Shown in pieces: positions 8,617 through 63,398 of a DNA stretch of 64,000 nucleotides (position 1 is the stretch's first letter; the number at the start of each line of letters is the position of its first letter). The DNA comes from Psococerastis gibbosa. Lineage: Eukaryota; Arthropoda; Insecta; Psocodea; Psocidae. The notes under the pieces are model-generated. The model made no database searches. It had not been told where the DNA came from and saw nothing but the letters and a program-made list of their open reading frames with translations. Location of the stretch: positions 47,961,039 through 48,025,038 of the forward strand of contig OZ020487.1 of the NCBI GenBank assembly GCA_963971405.1, given 5' to 3'. A program made the translations under genes and the position numbers.

Positions 8617-9414
8617 TACAAAAAGGATTTACAACGCCTAAACACTTGGTTTCAAATGCATGGTCTGACAATAAATGTGACCAAAACCTGCTATTTCCCC
8701 TTCAATCTAAGAGCAGGATACATAGAAGAGCCACTTGAAGTTAGATGCCACGTGTATAACTGTGACTGAGAAAACCCTATTTGCCATTGCCCAGCTATCA
8801 CGAAAGCATTAACAACTAAATACCTTGGCGTCCACTTCGATAGTGACATGAAATGGAGCTGTCACATAAAATCTATAAACGGTAAATGTCGAAATTTTTT
8901 AAGACAACTGTTTTACCTTCGCACTGTCTGCCCAGAAAACATTTTAATCCAGCTATACCACTCGCTGTGTGAATCTAGGCTTGCCTATGGGATCCAAGTG
9001 TGGGGTGAGACTTACATCACTAATTTAAGGTCACTTATAGTTACGCAAAAATATATAATTAGAACAATAGCCGGAAAACCAAGGATGTGTCCATCACTTC
9101 CCCTCTTTGTGTCACTTGGTCTATTCCCGCTAAGATACCTTTACCTATACAAGACTTTAAAAATATTTTATTCCATCTGTGGCGATATGGTACAGAGACC
9201 GAGGCCAGTAAATACCAGACAAATTGAGCACTTCACAGTACATAGAGCATATACAACAATTTTTACAAAGGCCTACCAATACCTAGCGCCAAAGACATTT
9301 AATCAACTAAAATTAGGGTCTGGATCTCTGACCACAAATAAATTTTCAAAATTTATTCGAGAATGGCTGATGGGACGGGAAGAGGTGGAATCTTTGTTTC
9401 AAATTATGGATTAG
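8617..9414 (+). pseudogene. LINE reverse transcriptase C-terminal part, 5'-truncated
   Basis: Upstream of the ATG at 8848 the same frame reads LQRLNTWFQMHGLTINVTKT then KYLGVHFDSDMKWSCHI, with one internal stop near 8768. This is the thumb region of a non-LTR reverse transcriptase. It continues through SRLAYGIQVWGETYITNLRS and RPRPVNTRQIEHF to REWLMGREEVESLF and a stop at 9412. A (GATT)n tail at about 9503-9520 marks the 3' end, as in CR1/L2-like elements. The polymerase active site is missing, so the copy is dead. Confidence 0.8.
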
Positions 9415-22561: not shown

Positions 22562-22918
22562 GCAGTAGCCGTACTGACCTACCAGCAGGAGGTCTCAAAG
22601 ACCTTCCAGGCGCAGTGTCCCCACTGGGGCCTAGCGGTGTCTTCATAGGTACGGAGACCATAGTCCCAGCGCCAACATAGGCAGTAGCCGTACTTACCCA
22701 CGTGCAGGAGGTCCCGGAGACCTTCCAGGCGCAGGGTCCCCACTGGGGTCCAGCGGTGTCATCATAGGTATAGACACCACAGTCCTAGCGCCAACATAGG
22801 CAGTAGCCGTACTTACCCACGTGCAGGAGGTCCCGGAGACCTTCCAGGCGCAGGGTCCCCACTGGGGTCCAGCGGTGTCATCATAGGTATAGACACCACA
22901 GTCTCTAGCACCAAAACC
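22562..22918. repeat. 119-bp minisatellite, three units
   Basis: Units start GCAGTAGCCGTACT at 22562, 22681 and 22800 and include CAGGAGGTCCCGGAGACCTT, AGGCGCAGGGTCCCCACTGG and AGCGGTGTCATCATAGGTAT. Units 2 and 3 are almost identical. The array is far more GC-rich than its surroundings. 119 is not a multiple of three, so the open frame across it changes frame per unit and is not a repeat protein. Confidence 0.9.
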
Positions 22919-40163: not shown

Positions 40164-40644
40164 ACAGCAAGTTTTACAAAGTTACTAAGGAGACTATTAT
40201 GTATATATTACTCTTGAGTAAAGTGAGACGTGAGAAACCACTGAACGGCTGAGCCAACGATAACTGACAATTTGGAGAGAGGCCGCGAACATACACGTAC
40301 AATAATGGCAGAGATTGAAAAATAGACACCTATGTTAAAATATTATGGCCACAAAACATTATGTGATGCGAAAAGTTTAGCAATGGCAATGGTGGCAGAA
40401 ATCACACGGACTTTGCTCTCGCTCGGTCTGAATCTCGGAAAAGGAAGCTCAGTTTATCATTCGTTCGCGCATATGTCTCAAAAGCATCTGCAACAATAAT
40501 TACAAAACTAAAATTAAAAAACAACTCAGCCAATACCCTGAAATCTACAAAAACAGTCTTTTATAGTAACAGCCACCCAGAATATCACCATGTTTCATTC
40601 GCAAGTTATTGCAACTTATTATTATTAGCTTACTTGTCTTCTTA

Positions 40645-41390: not shown

Positions 41391-41529
41391 CAAATGTTAT
41401 AGTTGCGGAATCTATAGCGACTGCTTTGAAGATGGCCAAGCTCTTCTCGGAATTCCATGAAAGAGCTCGCGAAGTCACTGAACAGAATTGCGAAAACGAA
41501 ATCTCTCCTTTCTCACCTTGGCCCAGCAT
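41391..41529 (-). CDS. Lpcat: LPCAT exon 7 (degenerate EF-hand region)
   Basis: This 139-bp exon follows GTTTTCAG and ends at TTTG|GTAAGT in phase 1. It reads MLGQGEKGEISFSQFCSVTS, then RALSWNSEKSLAIFKAVAID and SATITF. The GEISFSQF part sits where the first EF-hand loop of LPCAT1/2 (xDGxIxFxEY) should be, but the usual acidic calcium ligands are Gly, Gly, Lys and Gln. The family match is weaker here than in exons 4-6; the position, phase and hydrophobic pattern support it. At least one further exon must follow and was not found down to about 35000. Confidence 0.72.
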
Positions 41530-44500
41530 CTGAAAACAGATCAAGTTTAGACAATGGACATAGTATATTTCTTATGAGTCCATAGGGAAATTACGTCTAA
41601 ACCCAATGTTTTTATTGAATTGATCTGATTGGTTGGGCGCAAGCATTTTCCTGTACGAAGTAATTTGTCTCTGTATTCCCCCTATTCACACTCGAATATT
41701 ATTACAATATTCGATCCAATAAATATGGGTCCAACAATTGTTGAAAGAATAATACCTAAATTCAGATTCAAATCGTATCTTTCAGCTTACTCCAAAAAAT
41801 ATATATAATTACAAAGAGTTTCACGGCCGGACTCTTCTTTTTACATGCCCTCCGATGAAAAGGTGGCTAGTGTGGGATTCAAACCAACAACCTTTGGAGT
41901 GAAAGTCAGAGCCTGTACCACTTTATTACATATATTTTCAATTTATTGACAATTAGCAAAGTCAATACTTACAATAAACATGTGGCGCAGAATGGATATT
42001 AAGTTGCCGTTACAAACTACTACGAGGACGGTAAGCACGTATTCACTCCAGTCAATTACTCCACTACAATGCTGAAATAGAAAACAACTGCAATTACAAA
42101 AAGGAGTTCAAATAAAAATAAATTACGGCATTTAATTAAGACTGGCCACACCTGTTTTTGGCCCAAACTTTTTTATAAGAATCCAAAATGGAGGTACACG
42201 GATATACTGTAGGTACACCCCAGCAACATATAGCAAATCACCAACTTACAGTATCACACAGCTCAAATAGTTGCTTCAGCGGCAGAGACTCGGGGGAAAC
42301 AGCCAGTCTATCCGCGAACTGGCCTGGATCAAGACTGGCGTGCTCTAGCGGCCGAGTGAGGAACTGCTCGTCGGCCTGCGAGGTCTTGAGTTCGAGACAA
42401 TCTCGCAGCCGCTGAAACTCAACGAGACTGCCGGCTAGCGGCAGATGGAGACGTTTGGCCACCGTGAACAGGCGGCAGTCGTCGTATGTGTAGTTCGTTA
42501 CCGGCACCTCTAGTGCTCTGCAAACATGTCACCAGAAATTAGTGATCTATGTCTACGACGAAATTGACTTTTTTATAACCCAAACCAATAGAAGAATGGG
42601 AAAAATTACCAACTATCTGTGAAACTGCTTCACTTCCAATATTCAGTATCTGATGGAAACAAAACCATTCCCCCAACAACTGGGAAGGATAACAGAGAAA
42701 ACCAGCTCCTTGCATTTTCCTCCTGAGTTAGACAAGCAAAAGACGTTTCCTGGTTTCTTCAACTTCTCTACAGCCCTTGGCCACACTCCTACAGTCAACT
42801 CGGCTTTGCAAAACGTTGCAACATCTATACCGACTCCCAACCCGCGCCGGTTTCCAACGGATTATAGACGTCTCAGCCGCAGTCGTCTTCCCGTCATGGG
42901 CCTATGCCTGCTACTATGTCAATGGAAAGCGTGTCTCAGTGTGTCCATTGTCGCTTGCAACCGGTGTAGGCTGACGTCGAGGACATGTACCAGGTCACCA
43001 ACAGCATTTAGCGGAAGCAATACCAACAATAATGTCTAAATCATTGAGGTCGTTGGCATAAGGCAAAGTCCACAAAAAGCCATTAAAAATTAATAAATGC
43101 CTTTTAAACGGGCTTACAACTATTTATTAATATCGTGGGTATGTGGTTTACCTGTATGAAAACACTATGCCAATGCCTTTTGCCTTTGTCTCGAACTATT
43201 TTAATGATACGATCAGCATACTTTGGCTACTTTTACTATTTTGGAAGAGTTTTTGGACGTATGCCTGAAGTTGCTCATTGAACCAACGGCCCCATTGAAT
43301 TTTCCGACATTATTGATAGTATTGTATCCGCATAAATCATGGTCGGTACACGTCCAGAATGTCCACCCACACCGGCTACAAGCGACAATGGACAAGCTTA
43401 GACATTCTTACCAATGGCAACTGCAACAGGTGTGAGCGTAACATAACCAAGTCTGTGAATAGGAACAGGCTGTAGTTACCTGGCCATAACCTGTCGAACA
43501 TTGTGTGCGAACAGTTTGGGGTTGGCCCTCTCTTCAGCATTGGGTTTATACACGGGAAGGAACTCTATCTCGCAGCTACTGTGCACCTGCGTCAGCGTCA
43601 GCCAAAGCAGCTTCAATCTGCAACAACACACAGTTTATCAACAAAGGGTTGTCACTATGTTTTTCGAAGGGAGATTGTCAGATGGGCTACTGTATTGTAA
43701 GAAACTATGTATTGCGTTTCAATGAGGTTGCTCAGGGACCGTCTCAGATAGTTCGTTATGGTCTGTGTTTGAGAGTGTGGGTGAAGTAATTCACCGTTGG
43801 AATATTTGATTGAAAGTTACAGTTGTGTGTGACGGTTAATATCTTTAAAAAAATTAATTGTGGAGTTGACGACAGTGCTATACTGCCAGGAAGGTGGGGT
43901 AGAGTGTGAGGTGGTGGTAGGTTTTGCCCGGATGAGCTTCAGTTATAAATCTACTGCAATATTTTTACATTTTCGGCAATCCGTTGCAAAAGACTGTTTT
44001 CAGGACTTCCTAAATCAATACAACACTACGTCAACTTACGCTCCGGGGCCTTCCCACGTCCACGTGACCGTGTCCAGCTTGTTCGGGTACCGGATACAGA
44101 CGGGCTGGACCGGAACTCCGGGGTAGAAGGCGCCACATTTGAATGTGATGAGACAGGAGCGGTTGGTGCAGGTGCCCTCGGGGAAGATGAGGATCTGCGG
44201 CCAGTCCACAGGCGAGTTGGCCCGCCGCGATATTTCACGGATCGTGTTTTGACGCGACTCGGCGTCCTCGCGCCACACGTACACAGGTTGTGTGTAGTTA
44301 ATCAACTCTGTAATACATAAAAACATTTAGTTACAGTTCTAATTTGAAAGATAGGATCAGCAAACATGGACGAGCATTACTTAAGAGATCTTGTAAGGCC
44401 ACCGCCACGCACAGCCAAGTGTGGGCGACTGGATCCTATACTACAAGGTTTCGCCTACATTAGAAAAGTCCCAATTGAACTGAAAGCGGCGAGAAACCCT

Positions 44501-47500
44501 TCTAACTTCCCTAAATTGCTTAGAAACCATCTCTTAGAGAAAGCTTTCTACACTGTCACTGAGGCACTAGCACAATAGCAATGACAGAACTACCTGATTT
44601 TGACGATTTTACTTTATACTTTCTTGTCAATTACTTGTATTGTATAATCTAACAGAAATATATATTTATTTATTAATAGAAAATCGGAGGGTGAAAAGCC
44701 GAAAAAACCTTAAAGGTGTAAAAATCAAATATCTCATGATAGGTATATTAATTGTAAATTTGTCAAAAATATCAGCACAAACAGAAGAAATTTGTCTGAG
44801 CATTTTAATACATAAATTATGATGTACCTCTTTCCAACACACATTGACCACAATGTCAAAAACAATTATAGAATATTATTTATAATACTACAAGATATAC
44901 TAGGTAGTTCTTATGAAATAACAGTAAAAATTAGCACAGATACAACAATTACAGCTGAATCATGACCAATATTGGTTAAAATAAATTAGCGTTTAAATCT
45001 AATTCCATTTCGCATACTCCATAATTTCCACGAGTCTTGAAAGTCCAAAAATTTCAAGAAGACACGTGGAAATGGAATGCGGAATGCGCTATGGAACGCT
45101 GCGTTGATTGATGGGTGAATGAATGGATTTAAACCCACAGTAACTTTACCCGGGCAAAGTAGTGTTGAAAGAAAGCTTCTGCGGGGAAAACTACACAAAA
45201 TACGTATGCACTGGTTGCATAATCATGAAAACGCAGGCGAAGTTGGGCGTGCAGACACTTACGGCAAATCACCTATTAATGTCACAATCTAAATAGAACA
45301 ATACACAACAACTTACAAGCCAACGATTATACATAAAAATACGCAAGCTCAGCAAACTACGATAATCCTAGCCCAAATAAAATACTAAACCAATATTCAA
45401 TTCATAGGCCTATGACGTTCAGTTTCACACAAAAGCCAGTAAAAAAGATGCAAAAACAACTCACTGCCAAGCCAGGGATTAAGACCACTCTCCCAGCGCG
45501 CAATAATGGAGGGAAACCCTGTCACGTAGACAACAACGGCATCGAGGAATGTCGAGTGGGGGGCGATGACGAGGATGGGCGCCTCGTGCCGCGCCGCCTG
45601 GCGCCCCTTCACTATGATGCTCATGCCGCCTATGCGGTACGTCAGCTGCCCCACGATCGCGATGATCTCGCGCAGCTTCCTGAAAATTGCCACAACTTAC
45701 GCTCCTCATTGTCGTCGGTTAGCTCCAGTCCCCCGGGATTAGTCGTGGTTGGTTGCCATGTCAACGGATTGTTAGTGGATGCGTTATGAGCGAATCGGAC
45801 ACCCCTTCTACGCCCTTTTTGTACAATGTCTGATTGATCATGAAATATCTATCATAGAGCCATAAATAACAACAGGTTAAGCATACGAAATGCTCCTGTA
45901 AACTATTTATATAGTAAGCCGACACTAGCACAGTCCCAGTTTTTCAAGGCGTGAAAAACAATGTAAGGATATGTTAGGCCCACGTCTTCAAAAACTATTG
46001 CCAAAGGGTATTAGTGTCGGCTACATACAATGTATTAAAATGTAGAAAAGCTTATCGTCTACTACTTGATAGAAATTTAATTGTGTACAAAAAACTAGTA
46101 GTGGGGTATCCGACTTAATGTCACTTGCTGGCCCTTTTGCGACTTTCTCATGCTACTCAAAATAACGTACCTTTTATTGTCGTGTGTAGCCAAAGCTGTA
46201 AACTAATTTAACAACAGAAGAAACATAAGCTGACAGTTTCTTCTTGCTAGGTATTTTCTTATGTCGGTTGGAAAGTGACGATGAAACTATGAATTTACGT
46301 TTGCACAATTCCCACTCGGGTAGCTGCGACGATCTTTTGTAAAATAATTGTCTGAGAGGTAATATTTTCCTCAGTCTGATATCGTGCATAGGCCTACAAT
46401 TTACGTAGGATGTGCGTCACAAAATATGGAAAACAACCAGCCGATATAAACTCCCTCGGATGATGATGGTATGCTGACATTAAAGAGGCAATTTTACCCC
46501 TTGAATCAAAGGGAAACGGTACTCGTAACACCCCATGTTCGCCATTTTCAAAGAAATATTGGCATTTATTGTAGCTTCAGCACAGTGATTACAGTGTAAT
46601 ATCGTATTCAAAGTTCAAAGTACCCACGGTACATGATTAAACCTTTATAATACCTACGGGTATAAAATTAGTAGTTTCATCACATTTAGGTTTCTGTGAG
46701 GAAAAGTGGAGGCACGTTATGCATTAGAACATGGTGGTGCCACCATACCTACACGACAATGAAGTCAGACATAATATTGTAGCATTATAATATGGCATAT
46801 AATACTGACATTAAACTAACTTAGACTGAAGAGACAACCTCCTCGGTATAACCAGTTTTAAAATTTAAAATTTAAAAAAATCTGGACTTGGTGGGATTTG
46901 AACCCACGAGCTAAGCCTTGCCAGGACATCGTATTAACTGCTGGATCACAAGCCCGCTTAAGTACAGAGTTTGCTAAATCCTAAATTTATATCTTGGTCT
47001 TCGACAAGATTCTTATTTGTTAGACAGGTTAGCACCAGCTACACAACTATTTACCTAATAGGTCTGTGAGCTAACTTTAACATCAAACTTCTTTACCGAG
47101 CCATTGTTATGGAGCGTTACTTACGGGAGTATACACCCCCCCCCCCCCTTTCTTTATGTGTCTTTACTTGACATCTCTCTTCTAATTGTTCTCTAATATC
47201 ACTTATTCTCATAATTGCCACGATCCCACGAACGATATTCCGTCTTTGTTTTTGTTTTTGAACAGATTTAACCCACAAATATGGAACTTAATTTAACATT
47301 TGAGGTATTCTAGGATTCTCATTTTTCATTGACAATTGCGCCGTTTCGACATAACTAGGTTAAAATTATAGATTTATATTCCTGCCGATTGAAATTGCAT
47401 ATGATCCCTCCCAGTAACACATTTCTTAAAAAAAAGAAGATAAATTTGAAAAAAAAACCTTAATTTACAAGACTATCTTATTTTATTTTTTGGAGCATGA

Positions 47501-50500
47501 CGAATACATTTTACTAAATGCCCGTACCATCACCACAAGTTACAACCTCAATTTCTACACAACAAATACACACACACAAAGCAAAAAAGCCATGCACCAA
47601 ACTTATAAGCAAAAGAAAAAACCGGAAGCGTTAGTAAATTGAGCCCGTACTTCCAAAGAATGGGACGAATGCAGCCTCGGCCTTGGCGACAATGCTAGGC
47701 GCCCCCAGGTACACGACGGCAAGGGCGTCGAAAAAGGAAGAGTGGGGCGCCACTGCGAGAATAGGCGCCTCTCGGAAGGAGGCGCGGACGCCCTTCACCG
47801 ACACCCAGTGGAAACTCCCCACGCCAAGCAGCAAACGAACTAATTTTGCAGCCACAATTTTGAAATGCCTAGAAAAGTGTAAGCCAATATTTGGTTAGTC
47901 ATGTCCAGCCATAGTTACTCCGAGTAAAAAGAAATAAAAAATTGTATGAGAGGGACTGGAACCCCCGTGTCTTCGCCTCGTTGGGGCGTTTTGGTGACCC
48001 AAAATAAGCCAGGGTTCGAGTCCGGCTCTAGTTCAATTTTTTCATGTTTTCCTTTGACTAACATGAGCTTTGTACAGGCTAACTTTTAAGTAGTTAATGA
48101 ATGGAGTTCATAAAAAGAAGTATTTACATCCATAGTAAAAGGTGAAAGAAAGAAGCTACAATATTCCAATTTCCCCCAATAGATACAGTATGTTAAGAAC
48201 CATATTTACTACTAGAAGCAAAATCTTCTGCTCCAGCAGCATTTGCTCACATTTTATGAAGTAAAAGCTCTTTTTATGAATTCCATGAATGTTGACTGCA
48301 ATGTAAAGTATGAGTATAGCGACTAAAATACATTTTAATCGTTCAGTAATAATAGTACATCCATGATAACGCACCATGTACCATGACGGTCGAAGGTACC
48401 CAAAACCGTTCCAAAACAGTCACACATGAAAATGCTATACAAAAAATGTAAATGAACTGTTAGAGTAGTAAATAACCATCAACGAAACTTTTCATTCAGA
48501 GAGGTAATTCTGGTAAGGCGGGGTTTCCACCGACCCGCTAGGGCTAAATACAAATACGGAGACGTGGTAACAGACATTCAAGACTTAGGCGGGGTTTCCA
48601 TAGACCTCGCATTGCAGAATGCAAATGACATTGACGGAAATGTTTGTTTTTATTAATTTAATATTTTTTTTTAATTTAATTAACATATCACATGACGTCA
48701 TTATTTAATTTTAGTTTGTTTGTGATTTTACTGTATGATCATTGATCAATTTTAACTATGGCATAGAGTAAAACAAACATTTCTGTCAATGTCATTTGCA
48801 TTCTGCAATGCGAGGTCTATGGAAACCCCGCCTAAGTCTTGAATGTCTGTTACCACGTCACAGTATTTGGATTTAGCCCTAGCCGGTCGGTGGAAACCCC
48901 GCCTAAGTAAAAGTGTCTTGAAAATACACATCAACTGTAAGGTAGCTACAATGTTACAATTTTCCCTGCACTAAAATAAAATTATCCAGATAAGTCACTT
49001 TAATGGGAATGTTATACCCATTAGTTCCAACAGCTAGATCAAGGGTAACATTTATGTTGGTTACTCTGAAGGGGCTGAGCCGCAGGTGGCGGATAGCGCA
49101 TATGGTGGCTGCGGTCTGGTGGTAAGGTGCCCATTCCATTGACCGGCTAGGGCTATTTCCAAAAACGGTGACGTGGTAGCAGACATTCAAGACATAGGTG
49201 GCGTTTCCACCGACTTCACATTGCAGAATTGACGGAAATGTTTATTTTCCTCTATGCCATAGTTAAAATTGATCAATGATCATACAGTAAAATCACAAAC
49301 TAAAATTAAAAAATGGCGTCATGGGATATGTTAAGTACAAACATTTTAATAGATTTCTATAAAAAGAAAAATTCTAATTTCCATCAATGTCATTTGCATT
49401 CTGCAATGCGAGGTCGGTGGAAACGCCACCTAAGTCTTGAATGTCTGCTACGACGTCCCCGTTTTTGTAAATAGCCCTAGCCGGTCGATGGAATGGGCGC
49501 CTAACCCGAGGCTGACTATGTGACGGGGCGAATAGTTGCCACGGCACTCTTTTGTCCTGGGATTGGGCCCCGAAGCTGGAGGAACTCAACGGCATAACGA
49601 TGCACAAGGCAACGGGAAACCCCTGCATTGCAACTCCCTAGTACAGACATCATGACTAAGTACGTTTGATACTGTACACTCTTGACTTCCTTCCTACTTG
49701 TCTACGATTGCCATGATGATCGCTAATCTTCGATAGAAGAGGCATTACACAAGAAGATCCTAATAAAAACGTAGAGGAACATTTCTTCTACCTTACGACA
49801 TCTCAGATGGATATTTCATTATTATCGATATTTCCTGCGAAATTGTGTTTTATTAAAAAAAAAAATTGTGTAATACCTAATTCCAGATACATTAATTCTG
49901 ACAGACAAACGACAGACAACACAACACATGCTAATTATTGCACTAATTAATCTGGTCCGAATAATTAATATCTCACGGCATTTCCGTTTGATCTGGTACT
50001 CAACGTCAACAAAAGCCCATTGGGATTATTGCCGGCTGCGAATTTAGGACATAAAAGCCTGGCAACAATGCGTTAACCCATGTCACCCAACAATTCCACC
50101 TATATTATTACCCCGCGAAGGCTGCTGGGCGGTTCCAAACCGAATGTACGCACCAAACTACACATATGAGGTATCTACACTTTCCCTAGAACGGAATACG
50201 ACAAAACAATCATGCCTTATTTAAGTGCTTCCGAATTAACTAAATCGTTCTTAAAAGTGAACCTTCATGCGCACAGGCGTTGCAAAATTCTGCTAATGAT
50301 CACACGGGCCAACTACGTACTATGTAGTTATTTCCACTACTCACATAGTCAGTTTTTTTCTTTATAGAATCTAACTTCACAGAAAATCGTAGAGACATAA
50401 GGTCGTCCATTAATAACGCGATGTTTTTAGAGAATTTTTTAACCCACCCATGATGACACGTGGTGAGATTTAAGACTCCCCCCCCCCCCGCCGCACCCAA

Positions 50501-53500
50501 AATCACGCTTGACGAAAAAATAAATGCATTTGAGAACATACGACACCCCCTCACCTAGTGATATTTTGTTATTTTTAGCACCCCCCCCCCTCCCCCATTT
50601 CGAGCCTCATGAGACTAATGGATACCCCTCCCCCCACAAATGAGATGTTATATAGCAGAAGATATGTTCCTCTAAATTTCGACCTATAGCATGGGGCCGT
50701 CACTAACACCAGTTGGCCACAGTTTAGGAACTCCTTCGACCTGATATCCTCATTGGCCGTAATTGTTTTACAAATCAAATTCAATAACTGTCACCGATTG
50801 GTGTTAGTGACGGCAACATAATGTACATCAAAATGGGGAAGAACATTTTTATGTTTTATGACGTCGCATTTATGACGTCACCATCGATGTTTCCGGTTTT
50901 TAAACCGGTGAGGTTTCCCACCTCCGAATAATTACAAATTTGGGATGGCGTTATACTTTCCTACTTAGCCTATGTATTTAATTTAGAGAAGGAAACTTTC
51001 TGTCTCTGTGAAATCTTACAGGGTTAGTTTGGTTGTCCTATGCTAGTAAACCTTGAGACTCATAAGCTAAGAATAAGATACGTAACTGTAAATGATCTCT
51101 TTGGACCTAACGTAAAGTACATTAGTTCGTAATCAATGGAAATGTTCAATTGACAGTCGTGAGCAAAGGTCGCAGTGGCGACTAATCATGTAGCATTTAA
51201 TATTCACTAGACGCCACTGGCCTTGTGTTTTCTGGCACAAAAGCACCATTTGTCCCCTAGCGATGGCCTTAAGCGCACCAACGATAAAGGAAGGAAATGT
51301 CCCGGCGGAAGAAAAGGGTACTTGAAAGGCCAGAACCAATGTCCATGGATCCGTGCAAACAGTACTACCACGCGGGCGTAATACTGTCCCACCATGCACA
51401 CTATGCATTGGAACGTGGTGGTGCCGCTTTACTGCAGTACATTAAACACGGTACAGAATTCTGAATTCAGTTATGAAGTAAGGCGCCACCCCTATATTCC
51501 AATGCATATCGGTGCGCCAGTATTCCTCTCAAAAACCTTTCTAATCGCGGTGGTACCAAATACAAATACACCACTATCTGTTTTTGAAACAAAATCAAAT
51601 TTAGAAGGAAATATCATTCTTAGAGCTTCCACGTCACTTCGAAGAAATGTTCCTTTGTGCATTAAACTTTCAATTGTACATAATCTAGCCGTTTAGTATT
51701 AACTTATTCTTGGTGTTCAAAATGTAAACAAAACAATTTTGAATAGCACTTTCCATTCAAAAATTATCTTGTTTAGATTTTCAATCGCAGGTTAAGATTT
51801 CAAATAGTCGCCTTAGTAGGTCCGCAGGTCGAGGCTATGTTAATAATACCCAATCCGGTTTCGGAATACCGGGATTGAGGACTTAAAATCCAGTATTCTC
51901 AGGATTGACGAAAATGCCCCTGGAGTTATTCTCTAAGTACAAGCAGCCTTATAAGTGGGTTTTATACTTTGTCACTGTCATACAATACACAACTTATCAT
52001 GAAGAAACCCCCGTTTGCAAAATAATGGAATTGCTTTCATAAAGGGGAAGGAGGTAGTGTTTATCAACGTCATATACTCTGCTATAGAAACTTGTGAAAA
52101 TCAATAAATAGGTTAAGGTCATTGCGTTTAATTATCCCATTCCACACTGAAACCTTAGATATTTACAAAAAAAGAGCCAACAGTAGCTACAGTACTAAGT
52201 CCAAACTCCATTACCATGACAATCACATGTCATTATTCAGTAATATATACACAAATGGCCAAAAAGCTAGGCTATATTTTAACGGCTGTGGATTCGTCTA
52301 ATCAGTGGTTTATACTTTATAGCAAAGGAATACATGTGGAATACAATAAAAAGCTATGTCTTACCAACGCGAGCCACCCGCCAATCCTAGCAATAAGGTC
52401 TATATCAGAGGTCCACTAGTATATAGGAGAGAATGAATGAATGGTTTATTTCCCATTCCGTTCTCGTTGAAGAATATTTTTGAATCTCTTTGACATATCA
52501 GAGCACGCCATAGACGCGTCCAGAAAACAATCCCATCTTCGTTGCTAGGTATGCTCTGAATTGTGTGCAAGAAGATAGACCAACTATCCGAAGTGGTTGA
52601 AAAATCCCCTCGCAAGAACGAATGTCCCATCTCTTCAATATAAAACTAGGTCCGTATTAGCCAAAATCGACTACCATAAATCTGTTTTTAACAACAGGAC
52701 ACCAGAGCCGGCATTACAAAAATTTGTTTTCTTGTGAGATCCCATTTTTTTTTTTTTTCAATTTTGGCCTAGTTTTCTACAAAGAGGACTATCGCGCAAT
52801 GGTGGCCAGTGGGTCAATACTCACTTCCGCCATCCAGTCATAGGCTTCTCCCTGAGCTCGGCATCGTCGACCCCGTAGAGACCGACACAGGCAACGCACC
52901 ACGCCAAAACCAACAGCCCGCAAATCGCCGCCACCCTCAACGGCAGCACGGCCACAGTGAAGATTACAGTCTGAAAAACACAATCAAACATTTATACATA
53001 GTAATAATAAAAATATGTCAGTACTATTGTAGCTAGAACAAAATGGAACCCCCTCCCCCTTTTTTTGCAAAATCAAATTTCTCATGAACCGATTGTAGAG
53101 TATTGTATTGTACAATATGAGGTGTCATAAAGACAAAGTAAGAAAGGTTGCACTATATTTTACTATATAGTATGGTGATATACATTACTACCATATATGT
53201 GGCCACAGTTACATGGCATCCTCAGTGTCCGTTCTATTCTGCACACAGACACTGAGGCAGCAAAAACGAACTTTGTAACCAGCCATGAGAGAAGATTCTA
53301 ACAAGCAAGCAATAATAATATATGAACCAGAAGGAAATGGATTGATGGGGTTCAATAAAAAAAAAAAAATTAGTACCCCAAAAACCCACAAGTGCAATGG
53401 TAACAAAGATAAGTAAATTTGTGTGTTGTGGTGAAACGTGAGAAGGTAGGCTAATCGGCGACTGGATGTATGACATGGTTCCAAACTAATACCTATACGA

Positions 53501-56500
53501 GTAACACAATAAATTATATATTGGACGCTGTGCTGTATCATTTGACTGTTGCACACTTTCACTACAACTGATGCGCACACACTTGGATCCTACATGGGAG
53601 CTGTCATTCTCACAGGACCATTTATTCTTCCGCCAGCTTGACAACTCCAACTGATGGATGAACGAAATCTACAGAAGAACTATGATTACAATTACTGTGG
53701 CAGACATTTTTATTATATCGCGATATAAATATCGACAGTCAAGAACGGGTACTGCCATGATGGGGCCACGTCCCGTCGAAAGAAGGCAGCCAGATGACCT
53801 GATAAAACATATCGACGCAGAGGGAAAAAGAAGAAAAGGATGGCCCAGGCTAATTGTAGAAGCGAAAGTCCACCAAGATCTCAGAATTGTAGGAGCAACT
53901 GCAGCCGAAGCACAGAATCGCAAGGAGAGGAAGAGAACCTGCCGTATCGCTGACCCCTCTTAGGGATAAAGCGAGAAAAAAGTAAAAGTAAATATTGGCA
54001 CTCTCTGTGGAGACTCCCTCAGCTACAACTCCACAGCCACTGGTCGAAACATGTTTTTTATGTTCTCTTCGACCACGGCCCACGAGTCCGGATAATTGCA
54101 GTTGTTTTGAAATAATTATAACATAGGTTCGATTGGTAATAATTCAATTTAATTAGATCGGCTCCACTAATGGGGTAATGGCGGTTCCCATAATTGTTTG
54201 AAAAGTTCCGCTGGGCGGCACAGCCACACAATGGCACATGGTGTAGCTTTTCCTGTGCATGGTCAGTGGAATCTATAATGCAATTCTTTTACAATGAAAC
54301 AGTTGAAGGATATAAACTGAAACATAATAAATGAAAGCGTTGCCACTTCCCACACCACTTCCACATTACCACTTTAGCGACTTCAGAGGCAGGGTGGTAG
54401 CGTGCATGTACTTGTGCGAGTCTCTACATAACTTGCGATCGGAGACGTGTCGTAATTCGAAACAAGAGCTTATTAGGTTACTTAGTGAGGCGACTGAAGA
54501 GGTTAATTGGATACATTCATTAAATTGTTTGTACGCGATTAACCTTTAAAAAATAAAATAAAGAACCTATACACTTTAAGGGTGGCTCCCGCAATATGCA
54601 GTATTCCTTACCGAGCCTTAAGAAACTATCGAGGGACACTTCCTTATTAGTGGGAGTCGCTCTTGGTAGTTTAGAGCAGTGATTTGGTGGTAGCATGACG
54701 TCATGAAAAAAACCGAGTGTGTGCTTAAGACCGCACAGCAGAAGTGAAAATTGCATTGGCAATCCCAATCAATTTATATGTATAACCCTGGTAAATAATA
54801 TTATGTATGTATATGGGGAGAACTACCCGCCTGATCACCACAATTATAGCATGGCCTGAAAGAGGAAGAATAGACGAAGACATGGGTATAATTTACATTG
54901 AGATAGACCTTCTACATCTGCTTTATACCCGCCCATGCAATTCAAATGGGATTGCTGGAAATGCGTCTCAGTTTACTAATTTTGTGTTCCACTCGTGTTT
55001 CAGGGGTGAATTATAAATTTTTATATGTATTTATATTCGTTTGAAACCTTAATTCATACTGCTTCTAATGAAACATTAAAAATTCATCTCGGTTGAAAAT
55101 TGCAGGCCGTGGAATTTTTTTTCTCTATGCATGTAATGGTAAATGTACCCTTTGAACCTGTTTTCCGCCGAAACACGGATGGCTTACACACTCACCTGAG
55201 CCTGAACGAAGAGGCGGATAGTAAAACTGAATATATATGTCTGGAAAGAGTAAGAAAGGTGGAAAAGAACTAAAGTAGTTTGAAGATTTCAAAATGATAT
55301 TAACCCCTCCAAAAACGCTGCTGAAAAAGGCCTATTTTCGCCGAAAATCCATCACGTTTCCACCCCCCAAAGTCGAACCCCTGGCCCTATCGCATCAAGT
55401 ATAGCATGGCCTGAAAGAGGAAGAATAGATAAAGACATGAGTATAATTTAAATTGAGATAAGGCCTCTACATCTGCCCCAAAAAGTTGTTTTAAGCCCGC
55501 CCATACAATTTAAATGGGGTGTTCAGGCACCCCAACGAGCGTGTCGCGCCACGGGGTAGCCGTCACGAACCAGTCCAACTCACTGCCCTGCTAAAATCTG
55601 TGTGTGGTGCGCCTGAAGAAATGTTCAGTTAACTCTAACTTCTTTCTTATCTATTTCTTTTCTTTCTTTCTTCTTTCTAGCGAGCGTGTCGCGTGACGAA
55701 CCAGCCCAATTACTACCCTTCTAAAATCTGTGTGTGGTGCGCCTGAAGAAGTGTTCAGTTAACTCTATCTTCTTTCTGATCTATTTCTTTCTTTCTTTCT
55801 TCTTTCTAGCGAGCGTGTCGCGTGGCGAACCAGCCCAACTTACTACCCTGCTAAAATCTGTATGTGGTGCGCCTAAAGAAGTTTCCACTTCAAAAACATG
55901 GTGGCATGACAAGTTCAACAAAAACCCCAAGAGTTGGCTTGTGAGTTTTATACAGCTGTAACCCAAAGGCCACATGCTGCGATGGGTGATTTTGTACAGA
56001 TTTGACGTCTGCGGCGAGATGACTAGACATATTAGCCGGGCCGGTATGTTTACAACAATGGCCTGCTCACAACTCTCTCCCAGCCAAATTACTTTCTTCG
56101 TTTTGCACCGGGCACCTAAATTTGTCACTAACCTCCGACCACCCTTGCACACATGACACATAATATTATGTCGAGAAAGAAATCGTAGGATCCGTACATA
56201 ATCAAAACTGATGACATTTTTAAAGGCAAAATGTTATAACCCATGTTTGCCCCATTGCCTCATCCGAATCTTCCCTCCTGTGAATTACAAACTTAACAAT
56301 TATATCAGGCTTTATAATATCCAGGTAATTCTTAGCGCATAACTGAATTATATCTATAAAAAGGGCACGAATACGAAACGAAAAGAAAATGAAACTATGG
56401 TATTGTATGCTTCGTAAAGTTCATCAAAATTAATTCGGGGTACTTCGAACCTCGCACCTTCTCGTAACTTTAGCTAACACTCTATACCAACTAAACTGGA

Positions 56501-62500: not shown

Positions 62501-63398
62501 AGCATGACGCCCATGAAACCGATGGATGGATGAATTATACATAGACCTCCACGTGTTGGGAGTCTGTAGATGGTGGAGGGTCGTGCAAAACTAAGAAGTA
62601 AGATGACTGGAGGAGTGCTGGTGACCAGGCCAAAGCCCGTCAAGGGCTGTTGAGCCAGAAGGCGAATATAGAAGAATAGCGCAAGGGCTGTGGGATCTGT
62701 CATTGAAGCATGTGGGTTGGTACAAAAACACGGGGTCTACTTCAGCAGATTTTTCTCAGCTCTGTTTGAGATGTGGTCATCAATATGCCTCGCAGCCGTG
62801 TTTCGGTTTAAGGTAAGGTTGGTTGAAGTGTTGAACACAAGTCACGCGGAATATTGTTCCTGTTGTGTCAAGTCTCGAGCCTCCAACTTTCGTTTCATAG
62901 ATAGGCTAGTTCTCTACCAACTCGACTATTTCGAGCCTACAGTAAGAACTATGCCTTTCATGAAGGTCGTTCAAAATACAGTAAGCTGTGTAACAGCTGT
63001 TGGTTTCTGAAGGTTTGCTTCAGCATATTTGTCATGCACTATAATATTTTAGGAATAAATAGTACAATGCCAGCAGTCTCAGCTTACTAAATTCGTATCT
63101 ATAACTTCAAAACTGCATACAAAAATATTGCAAAATCTCAAATTTGAAATGTAAACAACAGCGGCCATTGCTTCTACCGCATGAATCAGCCCCTATAAAT
63201 TGTCTCAAATTTCGCAATAACGTATTAATAACCATCATATTACAACTACTTGTAACAGAAATAAAGGCTCCTTGAGCTTACCTTAATTTTATCATAGGTA
63301 GTTGTAAGCTCCAGTCGATGTATAAATGGATTTAAGTGTTCAGCTGCAAGGGTTGCATCCTCCCCACCGTATCCCACAGATTTGCCGTTTCCATTCAT
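41391..63398 (-). CDS. Lpcat: Lysophosphatidylcholine acyltransferase (LPCAT1/2 family), multi-exon, C-terminus not found
   Basis: Transfers an acyl chain from acyl-CoA to lysophospholipid in the Lands cycle; family members are ER or lipid-droplet membrane enzymes. Eight exons are assembled on the minus strand: 63282-63398, 52825-52970, alternative 47651-47868 or 45465-45679, then 44040-44307, 43480-43617, 42250-42517 and 41391-41529. All junctions are GT-AG and the phases agree throughout. The order of parts is family-typical: an N-terminal NPFIHRLEL segment, a hydrophobic membrane helix ending GWRK, HxxxxD (motif I), YVWREDAESR, FPEGTCTNRS (motif III), VPVQPV (motif IV), then a C-terminal EF-hand-like region. 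One isoform gives about 431 residues to the end of the last exon seen, against roughly 500-540 in the family, so about 70-110 residues are missing. The last exon ends in phase 1 at a good donor. Assignment to the family is firm; choice between LPCAT1 and LPCAT2 is not. Confidence 0.93.
41835..41938 (-). mobile_element. SINE S2, partial
   Basis: TTTACATGCCCTCCGATGA, GGGATTCAAACCAACAACCT and GTCAGAGCCTGTACCACTTT; 5' part only, near the LPCAT exon 6-7 intron. Confidence 0.65.
42250..42517 (-). CDS. Lpcat: LPCAT exon 6
   Basis: This 268-bp exon codes for 89 residues starting ALEVPVTNYTYDDCRLFTVA, which matches the family block following MA[RE]. The remainder (LPLAGSLVEFQRLRDCLEL and so on) is the more variable linker leading into the EF-hand region, ending KQLFELCDT. 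The acceptor is TTTGCAG and the donor is ACT|GTAAGTTGG, phase 0. Confidence 0.9.
42945..43075 (+). repeat. R3 copy in the LPCAT exon 5-6 intron
   Basis: CGCTTGCAACCGGTGTAGGC, GACGTCGAGGACATGTACCA, AATGTCTAAATCATTGAGGTC. A reverse half copy (43210-43400) lies next to it. Confidence 0.6.
43210..43400 (-). repeat. R3 half copy, reverse, LPCAT exon 5-6 intron
   Basis: CACCGGCTACAAGCGACAAT, GGACAAGCTTAGACATTCTT, GTACACGTCCAGAATGTCCACC. Confidence 0.55.
43480..43617 (-). CDS. Lpcat: LPCAT exon 5
   Basis: This 138-bp exon lies between TTGCAG and the donor GCCAG|GTAACT and is too fragmented to show as an open frame from an ATG. It reads LKLLWLTLTQVHSSCEIEFL, then PVYKPNAEERANPKLFAHN and VRQVMAR. 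These match the LPCAT blocks G-x-x-x-LKxLWLT and E[FV]LPVYxPxxEExxxPxLFAxNVRxxMA. It joins exon 4 in phase 2 and exon 6 in phase 2 without a shift. Confidence 0.93.
44040..44307 (-). CDS. Lpcat: LPCAT exon 4 (acyltransferase motifs II-IV)
   Basis: This 268-bp exon carries most of the conserved core: LINYTQPVYVWREDAESR, then WPQILIFPEGTCTNRSCLIT, FKCGAFYPGVPVQPVCIRYP and NKLDTVTWTWEGPG. The EGTC block is motif III (acceptor binding) and the VPVQPV block is motif IV of the membrane glycerolipid acyltransferase family. It begins after TATTACAG and ends in phase 2 at GGAGC|GTAAGT. Residue for residue it is the most conserved part of the locus. Confidence 0.95.
45465..45679 (-). CDS. Lpcat: LPCAT alternative exon 3b (catalytic HSTFLD version)
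   Basis: This 215-bp exon follows the acceptor CAATTTTCAG and ends at the strong donor GGCA|GTGAGT. It codes for about 71 residues: KLREIIAIVGQLTYRIGG, SIIVKGRQAARHE, APILVIAPHSTFLDAVVV with catalytic His and Asp, then GFPSIIARWESGLNPWLG. It enters in phase 2 and leaves in phase 1, exactly as exon 3a does. Either exon joins exon 4 to make a Gly-Lys pair at the junction. Its local GC content is clearly higher than that of the surrounding intron. The 1971-bp gap between 3a and 3b contains an inverted-repeat element at 45917-46022. Confidence 0.92.
45917..46022. mobile_element. Small MITE between LPCAT exons 3a and 3b
   Basis: AGCCGACACTA at the left and TAGTGTCGGCT at the right, 106 bp, no coding capacity. 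Confidence 0.65.
46884..46960 (-). pseudogene. tRNA-like repeat S3, copy 2
   Basis: On the minus strand: GGGCTTGTGATCCAGCAGTTAA, T-arm GTGGGTTCAAATCCCAC (perfect stem, intact B box), CAAGTCC acceptor side, then a T run. Same acceptor stem as 16246-16320; the anticodon arm does not pair well. Confidence 0.6.
47651..47868 (-). CDS. Lpcat: LPCAT alternative exon 3a (catalytic HSSFFD version)
   Basis: This 218-bp exon follows the acceptor ACACTTTTCTAG and ends at the donor GGAA|GTACGG, a weaker site than that of exon 3b. It codes for about 72 residues: a helix (KIVAAKLVRLLLGVG), VSVKG, REAPILAVAPHSSFFDAL with catalytic His and Asp, then GAPSIVAKAEAAFVPFFG. It enters in phase 2 and leaves in phase 1. 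Over the 40 residues starting at EAPIL it aligns without gaps to exon 3b with 21 identities. It is the upstream member of a mutually exclusive pair. It is fully open, with no stop or frameshift, so it is not visibly decayed. Confidence 0.88.
48517..48903. mobile_element. Composite fold-back element A, in LPCAT intron 2
   Basis: Outer arms GGCGGGGTTTCCACCGACC/complement, flanked by TAA on both sides (48514-48516, 48904-48906). Inside lies a second palindrome (about 48591-48833) whose arms begin GGCGGGGTTTCCATAGACCT, followed by GCATTGCAGAATGCAAATGA. The centre holds GATCATTGATCAATTTTAAC. It could form a ~180-bp stem in RNA. Confidence 0.85.
49126..49501. mobile_element. Composite fold-back element B, in LPCAT intron 2
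   Basis: Same nested design as 48517-48903 but with the core in the opposite orientation. Outer arms GGTGCCCATTCCATTGACCG / complement of GGCGCCCATTCCATCGACCG. Flanked by TAA (49123-49125 and 49502-49504). Inner arms read GGTGGCGTTTCCACCGAC. Confidence 0.85.
50697..50814. mobile_element. Small MITE in LPCAT intron 2
   Basis: GCCGTCACTAACACCAGTTGG at the left and CCGATTGGTGTTAGTGACGGC at the right. A rearranged relative at 37290-37360 shares GTCACTAACACCAGTT and AGGTCGAAGGAGTTCC. Confidence 0.7.
51173..51223. repeat. Short hairpin CAGTGGCG...CGCCACTG
   Basis: CAGTGGCGACTA and TAGACGCCACTG flank a 24-bp loop. Its ends resemble those of the hAT-like MITE at 1730-1961; it may be a solo remnant of ends. 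Confidence 0.5.
52825..52970 (-). CDS. Lpcat: LPCAT exon 2 (membrane helix)
   Basis: This 146-bp exon opens in phase 0 after TTTTTCAG and ends in phase 2 at CGGAA|GTGAGT. It codes for about 48 residues: a strongly hydrophobic segment (VIFTVAVLPLR, then AAICGLLVLAWCVACVGLYG) followed by a polar tail ending in EKPMTGWRK. The P-[IL]-R motif before the helix and the GWR[RK] motif after it match the LPCAT family closely. The intron upstream is about 10.3 kb (52971-63281) and is full of repeats. Confidence 0.9.
53690..53963 (+). pseudogene. LINE C-terminal fragment (RTE-like), in LPCAT intron 1
   Basis: Reads GPRPVERRQPDDLIKHIDAE, GKRRKGWPRLIVEAKVHQDL and AEAQNRKERKRTCRIADPS before a stop. It is a diverged relative of the tail at 1147-1422 (GRPK, W..., AQDR, R-x-A-DP). 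The following bases (GATAAAGCGAGAAAAAAGTAAAAGTAA) resemble the 3' end after 1422. Confidence 0.6.
54383..54558 (+). mobile_element. SINE-like repeat S1, copy 7, in LPCAT intron 1
   Basis: TTCAGAGGCAGGGTGGTAGCG to GCGATTAACCTTTAAAAAATAAAATAAAG. Confidence 0.7.
54835..54955 (+). repeat. Segmental duplicate, copy 1
   Basis: TATAGCATGGCCTGAAAGAGGAAGAATAGA, GACATGGGTATAATTT, CCTTCTACATCTGC, CCCGCCCATGCAATTCAAATGGG; repeated at 55396-55520. Confidence 0.7.
55396..55520 (+). repeat. Segmental duplicate, copy 2
   Basis: TATAGCATGGCCTGAAAGAGGAAGAATAGA, GACATGAGTATAATTT, CCTCTACATCTGC, CCCGCCCATACAATTTAAATGGG, with small indels against 54835-54955. Confidence 0.7.
55536..55890 (+). repeat. Tandem triplication with splice-acceptor-like leader
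   Basis: Units start CGAGCGTGTCGCG at 55536, 55681 and 55810. Units 2 and 3 are each preceded by TTCTTTCTTTCTTCTTTCTAG, a pyrimidine tract plus AG. Unit 3 opens a frame reading GEPAQLTTLLKSVCGAPKEV then STSKTWWHDKFNKNPKSWL before a GTGAGT. Unit 1 keeps that frame for EPVQLTALLKSVCGAPEE; unit 2 has a 1-base loss. Possibly a duplicated exon of an unknown plus-strand gene. Confidence 0.6.
56435..56505 (-). pseudogene. tRNA-like fragment in LPCAT intron 1
   Basis: Minus strand TCCAGTTTAGTTGGTATAGAG and GCGAGGTTCGAAGTACCCC resemble A and B boxes; no full cloverleaf was assembled. Confidence 0.4.
56712..56885 (+). repeat. R3 copy in LPCAT intron 1
   Basis: AATGGTAAGCTTGTCCATCA, GTTTAGATTGACATCGAGAA, TGTCCGAAATCCATGGAGTC, GGGACCTATGGTCCAT. 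Confidence 0.65.
57390..58095 (+). repeat. Tandem array of a LINE-tail-like unit, in LPCAT intron 1
   Basis: Three copies of a block coding for APN[RF]AEAWxAAA occur near 57438, 57750 and 58021. A longer unit (TCTAGTCC...TAATGCAGCAAAGCAAG) starts at about 57486 and again at about 57847. The second long unit lacks roughly 100 bp after GATCTTCTTCCC. The 57750 copy reads AEAWQAAAQDRARWRGFLRA, a likely LINE C-terminus. It looks like a local duplication of a LINE end. Confidence 0.6.
58100..59195. other. LPCAT intron 1, unique-looking stretch
   Basis: No repeats of the families above and no recognised exon. Open frames on both strands at 58554-58888 overlap each other and lack motifs. Confidence 0.45.
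59200..59380 (-). mobile_element. tRNA-derived SINE S2, copy 3
   Basis: Complement of the S2 consensus: AGCCAACCTAGCGGAGTTAG ... GGGACTCGAACCAACAACCT ... CTACATGTCCTGGC. The best preserved B box of the family; lies in LPCAT intron 1. Confidence 0.8.
59400..59540 (-). mobile_element. tRNA-like SINE S4, copy 2
   Basis: GGGTTGGGTGGACCCCTCCC, TCTCGAACCTAAACCCTCCG, TGGTCCAGTCATCTAACTAC: the same order as 5580-5682, in LPCAT intron 1, abutting S2 copy 3. Confidence 0.55.
59545..62550. other. LPCAT intron 1, 5' part
   Basis: Mostly unique-looking AT-rich DNA with (AATC)n at 59866-59880, the R5 copy at 60930-61065 and C/G runs at 61505, 62327 and 62442. No exon recognised. Confidence 0.45.
60930..61065 (-). 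repeat. R5 copy, reverse
   Basis: TAAGTTAATTTGTTACGC, TTGATTTAACCCACA, ACACCACAACTACCCCCCCC, GGGCTGGATCCGCCCCTGAT. Confidence 0.6.
62555..62670 (+). pseudogene. LINE 3' tail fragment
   Basis: Matches the tail at 25975-26110 (GTTGGGAGTC...GGTGGAGGGT, then GACTGGAGGAGTG and GGCCAAAGC) with small insertions that break the frame. It lies just inside the 5' end of LPCAT intron 1. Confidence 0.5.
63282..63398 (-). CDS. Lpcat: LPCAT exon 1 (start codon, N-terminus)
   Basis: It codes for 39 residues, beginning MNGNGKSVG and ending in LNPFIHRLELTTTYDKIK. The NPFxxxLxL stretch ahead of the membrane helix is a hallmark of LPCAT N-termini. The start is the ATG read from 63398, which is the first ATG in this frame giving a family-typical length; the same frame stays open upstream to about 63443, with another in-frame ATG near there, so a longer N-terminus is possible. 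The exon ends in phase 0 at AAG|GTAAGC. No TATA box or other core promoter element was recognised in 63399-64000. Confidence 0.85.

Follow-up and report, generated by a model that had tools for sequence, protein, structure and literature searches.

Mutually exclusive exons are familiar from channels, muscle proteins and Dscam, and human LPCAT1, LPCAT2 and LPCAT4 are separate genes. Here we describe an acyltransferase gene of the LPCAT1/2 type on the minus strand of a 64,000-nucleotide stretch of the genome of the psocid insect Psococerastis gibbosa (GenBank assembly GCA_963971405.1, contig OZ020487.1, positions 47,961,039 to 48,025,038; this whole stretch is referred to below as the window). 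The gene resembles the human LPCATs in the NPF start motif, HxxxxD, FPEGTCTNRS, PGVPVQPV, LDTVTWTW and a putative EF-hand-like tail. In contrast to the human arrangement of separate genes, a single gene here contains two candidate variants of the third coding exon, denoted 3a and 3b. The human LPCAT1, LPCAT2 and LPCAT4 sequences that served as queries and comparators throughout were not database records.

The closest described systems are tandem mutually exclusive exon pairs with lengths that are not multiples of three, reported in human (PMC5740500) and in human, arthropod and nematode genes (PMC9741552). As in those pairs, 3a and 3b are homologous neighbors that encode the same part of a domain, and their joint use breaks the reading frame; the gene and the site, motif I of a lysophospholipid acyltransferase, are different. 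The words LPCAT, AGPAT and acyltransferase are absent from the main text of both papers. The single predicted LPCAT1/2 ortholog of Drosophila, CG32699, has LPCAT activity and is found on lipid droplets; the main text of the corresponding paper contains neither the word 'splice' nor the word 'exon' (PMC4293825). A copepod transcriptome table includes three lpcat1_2 entries and one lpcat4 entry, and no splice pair is mentioned for these LPCAT-like transcripts in the available part of that paper (PMC3929608). Among the literature matches listed, there is no report of a mutually exclusive exon pair in an LPCAT or another acyltransferase, and a predicted isoform may already be present in annotation databases.

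The gene model and the two variants of exon 3

The modeled coding sequence spans 22,997 bases, from the ATG at 63398 to the stop codon ending at 40402, and comprises nine coding positions, the third of which can be filled by either 3a or 3b (Table 1). All nine acceptors end with AG and all nine donors begin with GT. Exons 3a, 3b, 4, 5 and 6 were located by tblastn with human LPCAT1 (E-values from 2e-38 to 1e-6). The ends of the model are less secure than this middle part: the matches of exons 1 and 7 are weak (E-values of 2.5 and 0.37, respectively), and the positions of exons 2, 8 and 9 come from borders and frame judged by eye.

Exon 2 breaks off after the second base of a codon, and one base must precede exon 4. 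With 3a or 3b used alone, the frame is open from the ATG to the stop, resulting in a protein of 492 amino acids with 3a and 491 amino acids with 3b, whereas joining both exons or skipping both leads to premature stops in the model. The two exons are adjacent, separated by an intron of 1971 nt, and share the entry and exit phases. Over the whole exon, the 3a and 3b peptides are identical in 28 of 71 positions, with one single-residue gap, and the ungapped block EAPIL...G contains 21 identities in 40 residues. The local alignment score of 134 is far above every one of 5000 shuffles (mean 24.3, standard deviation 4.7, maximum 52; z 23), which excludes chance likeness. At the nucleotide level, the exons are 47% identical, with 36, 27 and 49 mismatches at codon positions 1, 2 and 3, respectively, across 71 codons; HxxxxD, VKG, EAPIL, PSI and PxxG are kept in both exons despite the saturation of the third positions.

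Several of these features had been pointed out in an earlier note on this DNA, made by a model from the letters alone. Recomputation reproduced the coordinates and lengths (218 and 215 bp) of the two exons, the HSSFFD and HSTFLD variants of HxxxxD and the 21 identities in the 40-residue block; the gene model bore out the phases of both exons, the Gly-Lys formed by each at the exon 4 junction and the loss of the exon 4 frame when both exons or neither are used.

Taken together, the homology, the identical phases, the AG/GT sites, the frames that are open with one exon only and the retention of HxxxxD in both copies make a mutually exclusive tandem pair the best reading of 3a and 3b, with the exclusivity apparently enforced at least by the frame. 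We put at about 0.83 the probability that the single LPCAT1/2/4-type gene found in this genome contains a tandemly duplicated internal exon, the copies of which are spliced in a mutually exclusive manner to produce two enzyme variants. The earlier note had proposed two isoforms of different substrate preference made from one gene by mutually exclusive splicing; of this, the single LPCAT gene and the two homologous, frame-incompatible and constrained-looking exons hold, the exclusive splicing itself is a prediction from the sequence, and the difference in substrate preference is conjectural.

Both forms of the predicted protein contain an acyltransferase domain. The spliced peptides from the tail of exon 2 to exon 5 match PF01553 with 61.6 bits when 3a is included and 56.8 bits when 3b is included (cut-off 23), and the whole 3b protein scores 54.7 bits. 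The presence of this domain together with HxxxxD and EGT is in keeping with a product of the LPCAT1/2/4 family. In the 3b isoform, EF-hand models of Pfam match from residue 375, with scores under their cut-offs.

The sole PDB match at E-values up to 0.1 was T. maritima PlsC (TmPlsC; 5kym). In the alignments with this protein, along which its residue numbers were counted, exon 3 spans HX4D (H84-D89), the stretch around K105, and P112, and 3a has Lys opposite K105 where 3b has Arg. Under the motif definitions given in PMC6688108, motif I and the Lys105-equivalent position belong to exon 3, and motif II (YxxR), EGT (motif III) and motif IV all belong to the shared exon 4. Thus, the swap would affect the active site on its motif I side and leave the rest of the core as it is. 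The suggestion in the earlier note that the two exons exchange the catalytic core is borne out for motif I and the Lys105-equivalent position and, with motifs II to IV encoded in exon 4, was overstated. In TmPlsC, K105 has been proposed to bind the phosphate of lysophosphatidic acid and is highly conserved outside Archaea (PMC6688108); it is also thought to contact the acyl intermediate through its backbone, and is replaced by Arg in SalA (PMC8319176).

If both exons are used, two enzyme variants would be produced. As the surroundings of motif I, including the Lys of 3a and the Arg of 3b, are determined by exon 3, the kinetics or the substrate choice of these variants might not be the same. 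A single LPCAT gene would then be enough for an animal to alter the wall of the active site of a Lands-cycle enzyme, with splicing taking the place of extra genes. The two forms would also provide a natural two-state test of what exon 3, and in particular the residue opposite TmPlsC Lys105 (Lys or Arg), contributes to the choice of acyl donor or acceptor. An exclusive pair at motif I of a lipid acyltransferase would usefully extend the list of known examples without amounting to a new principle.

Origin of the exon pair, constraint and alternative explanations

The complete assembly (409,210,807 bases in 68 contigs) was searched with the exon peptides; only the best candidates were scored, and distant paralogs may have been missed. 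The 3a peptide (E-values up to 0.001) and the 3b peptide (E-values up to 1) each matched two places only, 3a and 3b themselves. The exon 4 peptide (E-values up to 1) matched the present gene and one further place with 39% identity (contig C1, 14736773-14739979), where the frames beside the match read EGTCINNTSV and YDPRFGDAFWNS, and which looks GPAT3/4-like. No third copy of exon 3 was detected by tblastn in the window or by the peptide searches of the assembly, and scans of the IMG/VR viral contigs and the GTDB genomes with exon 4 yielded no confirmed relative. With each exon 3 peptide matching 3a and 3b only, and exon 4 matching only the present gene and the GPAT3/4-like place, 3a and 3b are, on the evidence of these searches, the result of an exon having been duplicated, and reflect neither a second gene nor a duplicate introduced by the assembly.

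Both exons look constrained over most of their history. In a pairwise codon model of 3a and 3b, omega of 0.5 and omega of 1.0 were both rejected against free omega (2dlnL of 14.9 and 26.0, respectively); as the divergence is saturated and the estimate lies at the upper bound for divergence, the value of omega itself is not meaningful, which leaves the contrasts with 0.5 and 1 as the usable result. When neutral decay of 3b was simulated up to the observed third-position divergence (49 of 71), a stop codon appeared in 96-98% of 300 runs and the mean amino acid identity fell to 0.09-0.11, compared to 28 of 71 identical residues and no stop in the actual exons. The codon model and the simulation together led us to reject a pseudo-exon that arose through long neutral decay.

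Several observations weigh against mutually exclusive splicing of two functional exons. Scored on their own, the two exon peptides reach only 15.0 and 13.8 bits with Pfam, under the curated cut-off, although no more is to be expected from half a domain. A stop is still missing from 35% of the simulated copies at 0.2 neutral substitutions per site, so that the decay tests rule out long neutral decay but not a recent loss. Furthermore, two ways of imposing exclusivity find no support here: steric hindrance between 3a and 3b, given the intron of 1971 nt, and U2/U12 incompatibility, given that all nine donors begin with GT and that no U12-type consensus was seen by eye.

One alternative is that the gene makes a single protein, with either 3a or 3b left over from an old tandem duplication and now dead or seldom used. 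Such a relic could be 3a, the donor of which (GAA/GTACGG, with the slash at the exon border) is the weakest of the nine, with a predicted U1 duplex of -1.9 kcal/mol compared to -4.9 to -9.5 kcal/mol for the other eight, or 3b, the acceptor of which is poor in pyrimidines (10 of the last 20 bases, the joint lowest with exon 5; 13 for 3a) and has an embedded sequence resembling a 5' splice site; a recent loss would not yet have marked the coding sequence. We nevertheless consider a relic unlikely, with both frames open and the conserved motifs kept at saturated third positions, where long decay would have produced stops and an identity of about 10%. It is quite improbable that 3a and 3b are not strictly exclusive, either as neighboring cassette exons or as parts of transcripts whose ends differ through an alternative promoter or polyadenylation: nothing in the sequence, including the 1971-nt intron, forbids the joining of 3a to 3b, but joining or skipping both would lead to a premature stop, and no working acyltransferase would be expected. 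An assembly artefact, in which two loci or haplotypes were collapsed or fused into a chimera, is very improbable. The locus was read in a single assembly, but the nucleotide identity of 47% is far below the allelic level, and the searches of the assembly turned up 3a, 3b and an LPCAT exon 4 nowhere else; a second gene or haplotig was rejected on the same grounds.

The 3a/3b duplication looks old. In the exon 3 region, human LPCAT1 and LPCAT2 are identical in 28 of 70 residues; 3a shares 30 of 71 residues with each of them, and 3b shares 25 of 70 with LPCAT1 and 26 of 71 with LPCAT2. In exon 4, the identity is 62 of 88 in all three comparisons among the present gene, LPCAT1 and LPCAT2. A more far-reaching proposal is that the exon pair dates back to the main split among animal LPCATs, with 3a of the LPCAT1-like (Lys) type and 3b of the LPCAT2-like (Arg) type, such that an ancestor would have switched between the two by splicing and vertebrates would have divided them between separate genes. 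In favor of this proposal, we count the divergence between 3a and 3b, which are as far apart as LPCAT1 and LPCAT2; the exon-only scores (3a-LPCAT1, 123; 3a-LPCAT2, 105; 3b-LPCAT2, 126; 3b-LPCAT1, 88; 3a-3b, 124); and the lean of the informative sites, with two in the quartet joining 3a with LPCAT1 and 3b with LPCAT2 and none for either alternative (three against one and none when LPCAT4 replaces LPCAT2). Against it, the plain identity counts do not pair 3a and 3b with LPCAT1 and LPCAT2, and the trees do not separate it from an arthropod-specific duplication: the log-likelihoods of the three quartets differ by no more than 0.3, and all three, like the four five-taxon trees, are retained by the approximately unbiased (AU) test. 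We regard this ancient origin of the pair as unlikely.

Possible basis of the choice between 3a and 3b

In a set of human mutually exclusive exons, 377 of 629 clusters include frame-breaking exons, and joined reads were found in only 83 of these 377 (PMC5740500), from which we infer that the frame is usually not the whole mechanism. In the present gene, transcripts with both exons or neither might be removed by nonsense-mediated decay or never be made, and the choice might be regulated by the unequal splice sites, with the donor of 3a being the weakest, or by intronic elements.

The sequence resembling a 5' splice site ahead of exon 3b could act as a decoy. Across the 22,997 bases of the gene, the sense strand has nine copies of GTAAGT (four modeled donors and five other sites) and the other strand two, so the copy ahead of the 3b AG may be due to chance.

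Intron 2 and the 3a-3b intron contain complementary stretches with scores of 63.5 and 61, compared to a null maximum of 36 (ungapped scan, 40 block shuffles). For the other two intron pairs (Im-I3 and I2-I3), the best scores, 28.0 and 30.0, were at the null level (mean best 28.5 and 31.2, respectively; 40 block shuffles). Pairing between intron 2 and the 3a-3b intron could loop out 3a. This is a lead only, because the complementary stretches overlap repeats with inverted copies nearby in intron 2 (I6 and I13), and three of the four sit in strong local folds, with 45910-46070 folding locally. Exons Ab and 3 of U2AF1 (PMC5224494) belong to a vertebrate splicing-factor gene, whereas the intronic repeats described here look like shared transposon families, and a regulatory role for them is only putative.

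Two further observations concern the same introns. The 3a-3b intron includes a tRNA-like element, probably the head of a short interspersed nuclear element (SINE); ARAGORN called no tRNA in the window, this element included. Intron 2 contains nested inverted repeats at positions 48509-49509 of the window, with arms that include ones of 167, 135 and 109 nt and are 79-96% complementary, looking like two related elements of the foldback or miniature inverted-repeat transposable element (MITE) type.

Coordinates and other features of the window

Table 1. Modeled exons of the LPCAT gene and intronic features, in window coordinates
Feature	Positions	Strand	Content	Basis or comparison
Coding exon 1	63282..63398	-	ATG; ends ...DKIK; phase 0; GT donor, in frame with exon 2	NPFIHRLEL, weak tblastn match to human LPCAT1, E 2.5
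Exon 2	52825..52970	-	Hydrophobic segment; ends ...MTGWR + AA	AG/GT borders and frame, by eye
Alternative exon 3a	47651..47868	-	218 bp; HSSFFD; SIVAKAE (Lys at TmPlsC K105 position); VPFFG	
Alternative exon 3b	45465..45679	-	215 bp; HSTFLD; SIIARWE (Arg at TmPlsC K105 position); NPWLG	
Exon 4	44040..44307	-	Common to both forms; motif II region (YVWR), FPEGTCTNRS, PGVPVQPV	62/88 residues identical to human LPCAT1
Exon 5	43480..43617	-		tblastn to LPCAT1, E 9.5e-14; borders
Exon 6	42250..42517	-		tblastn to LPCAT1, E 1.1e-6; borders
Exon 7	41973..42071	-	Degenerate EF-hand region	Weak tblastn match to a piece of LPCAT2, E 0.37; borders
Exon 8	41391..41529	-		Borders and frame, by eye
Exon 9 (last coding)	40402..40487	-	Includes the stop	Borders and frame, by eye
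5'-splice-site-like AGC/GTAAGT	45695..45703	-	Preceded by a branch-point-like CTAAC and followed by the 3b AG; possible decoy	All nine bases shared with the exon 4 donor
Intronic inverted-repeat element	45992..46064	-	3a-3b intron	Complementary to 50653-50725 in intron 2; score 61
Intronic repeat fragment	46688..46750	-	3a-3b intron; repeats D6, I13	Complementary to 51476-51538 in intron 2; score 63.5
tRNA-like element	46883..46955	-	3a-3b intron	Rfam tRNA, 39.3 bits

Elsewhere in the window, two tandem repeats, each with 92% matches, were detected at 22562-22903 (period 119, 2.9 copies) and 55561-55882 (period 130, 2.5 copies). An open frame of 214 amino acids at 8770-9414 on the plus strand resembles, by eye, the C-terminal part of a non-LTR reverse transcriptase. 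In the whole assembly, (TTAGG)6 gave 13,642 forward and 7,517 reverse matches (overlaps counted), compared to none for the reversed control; (TTAGG)n is the arthropod type of telomere repeat, with which the count agrees, and the matches that were listed sit close to the end of a 53.6 Mb contig.

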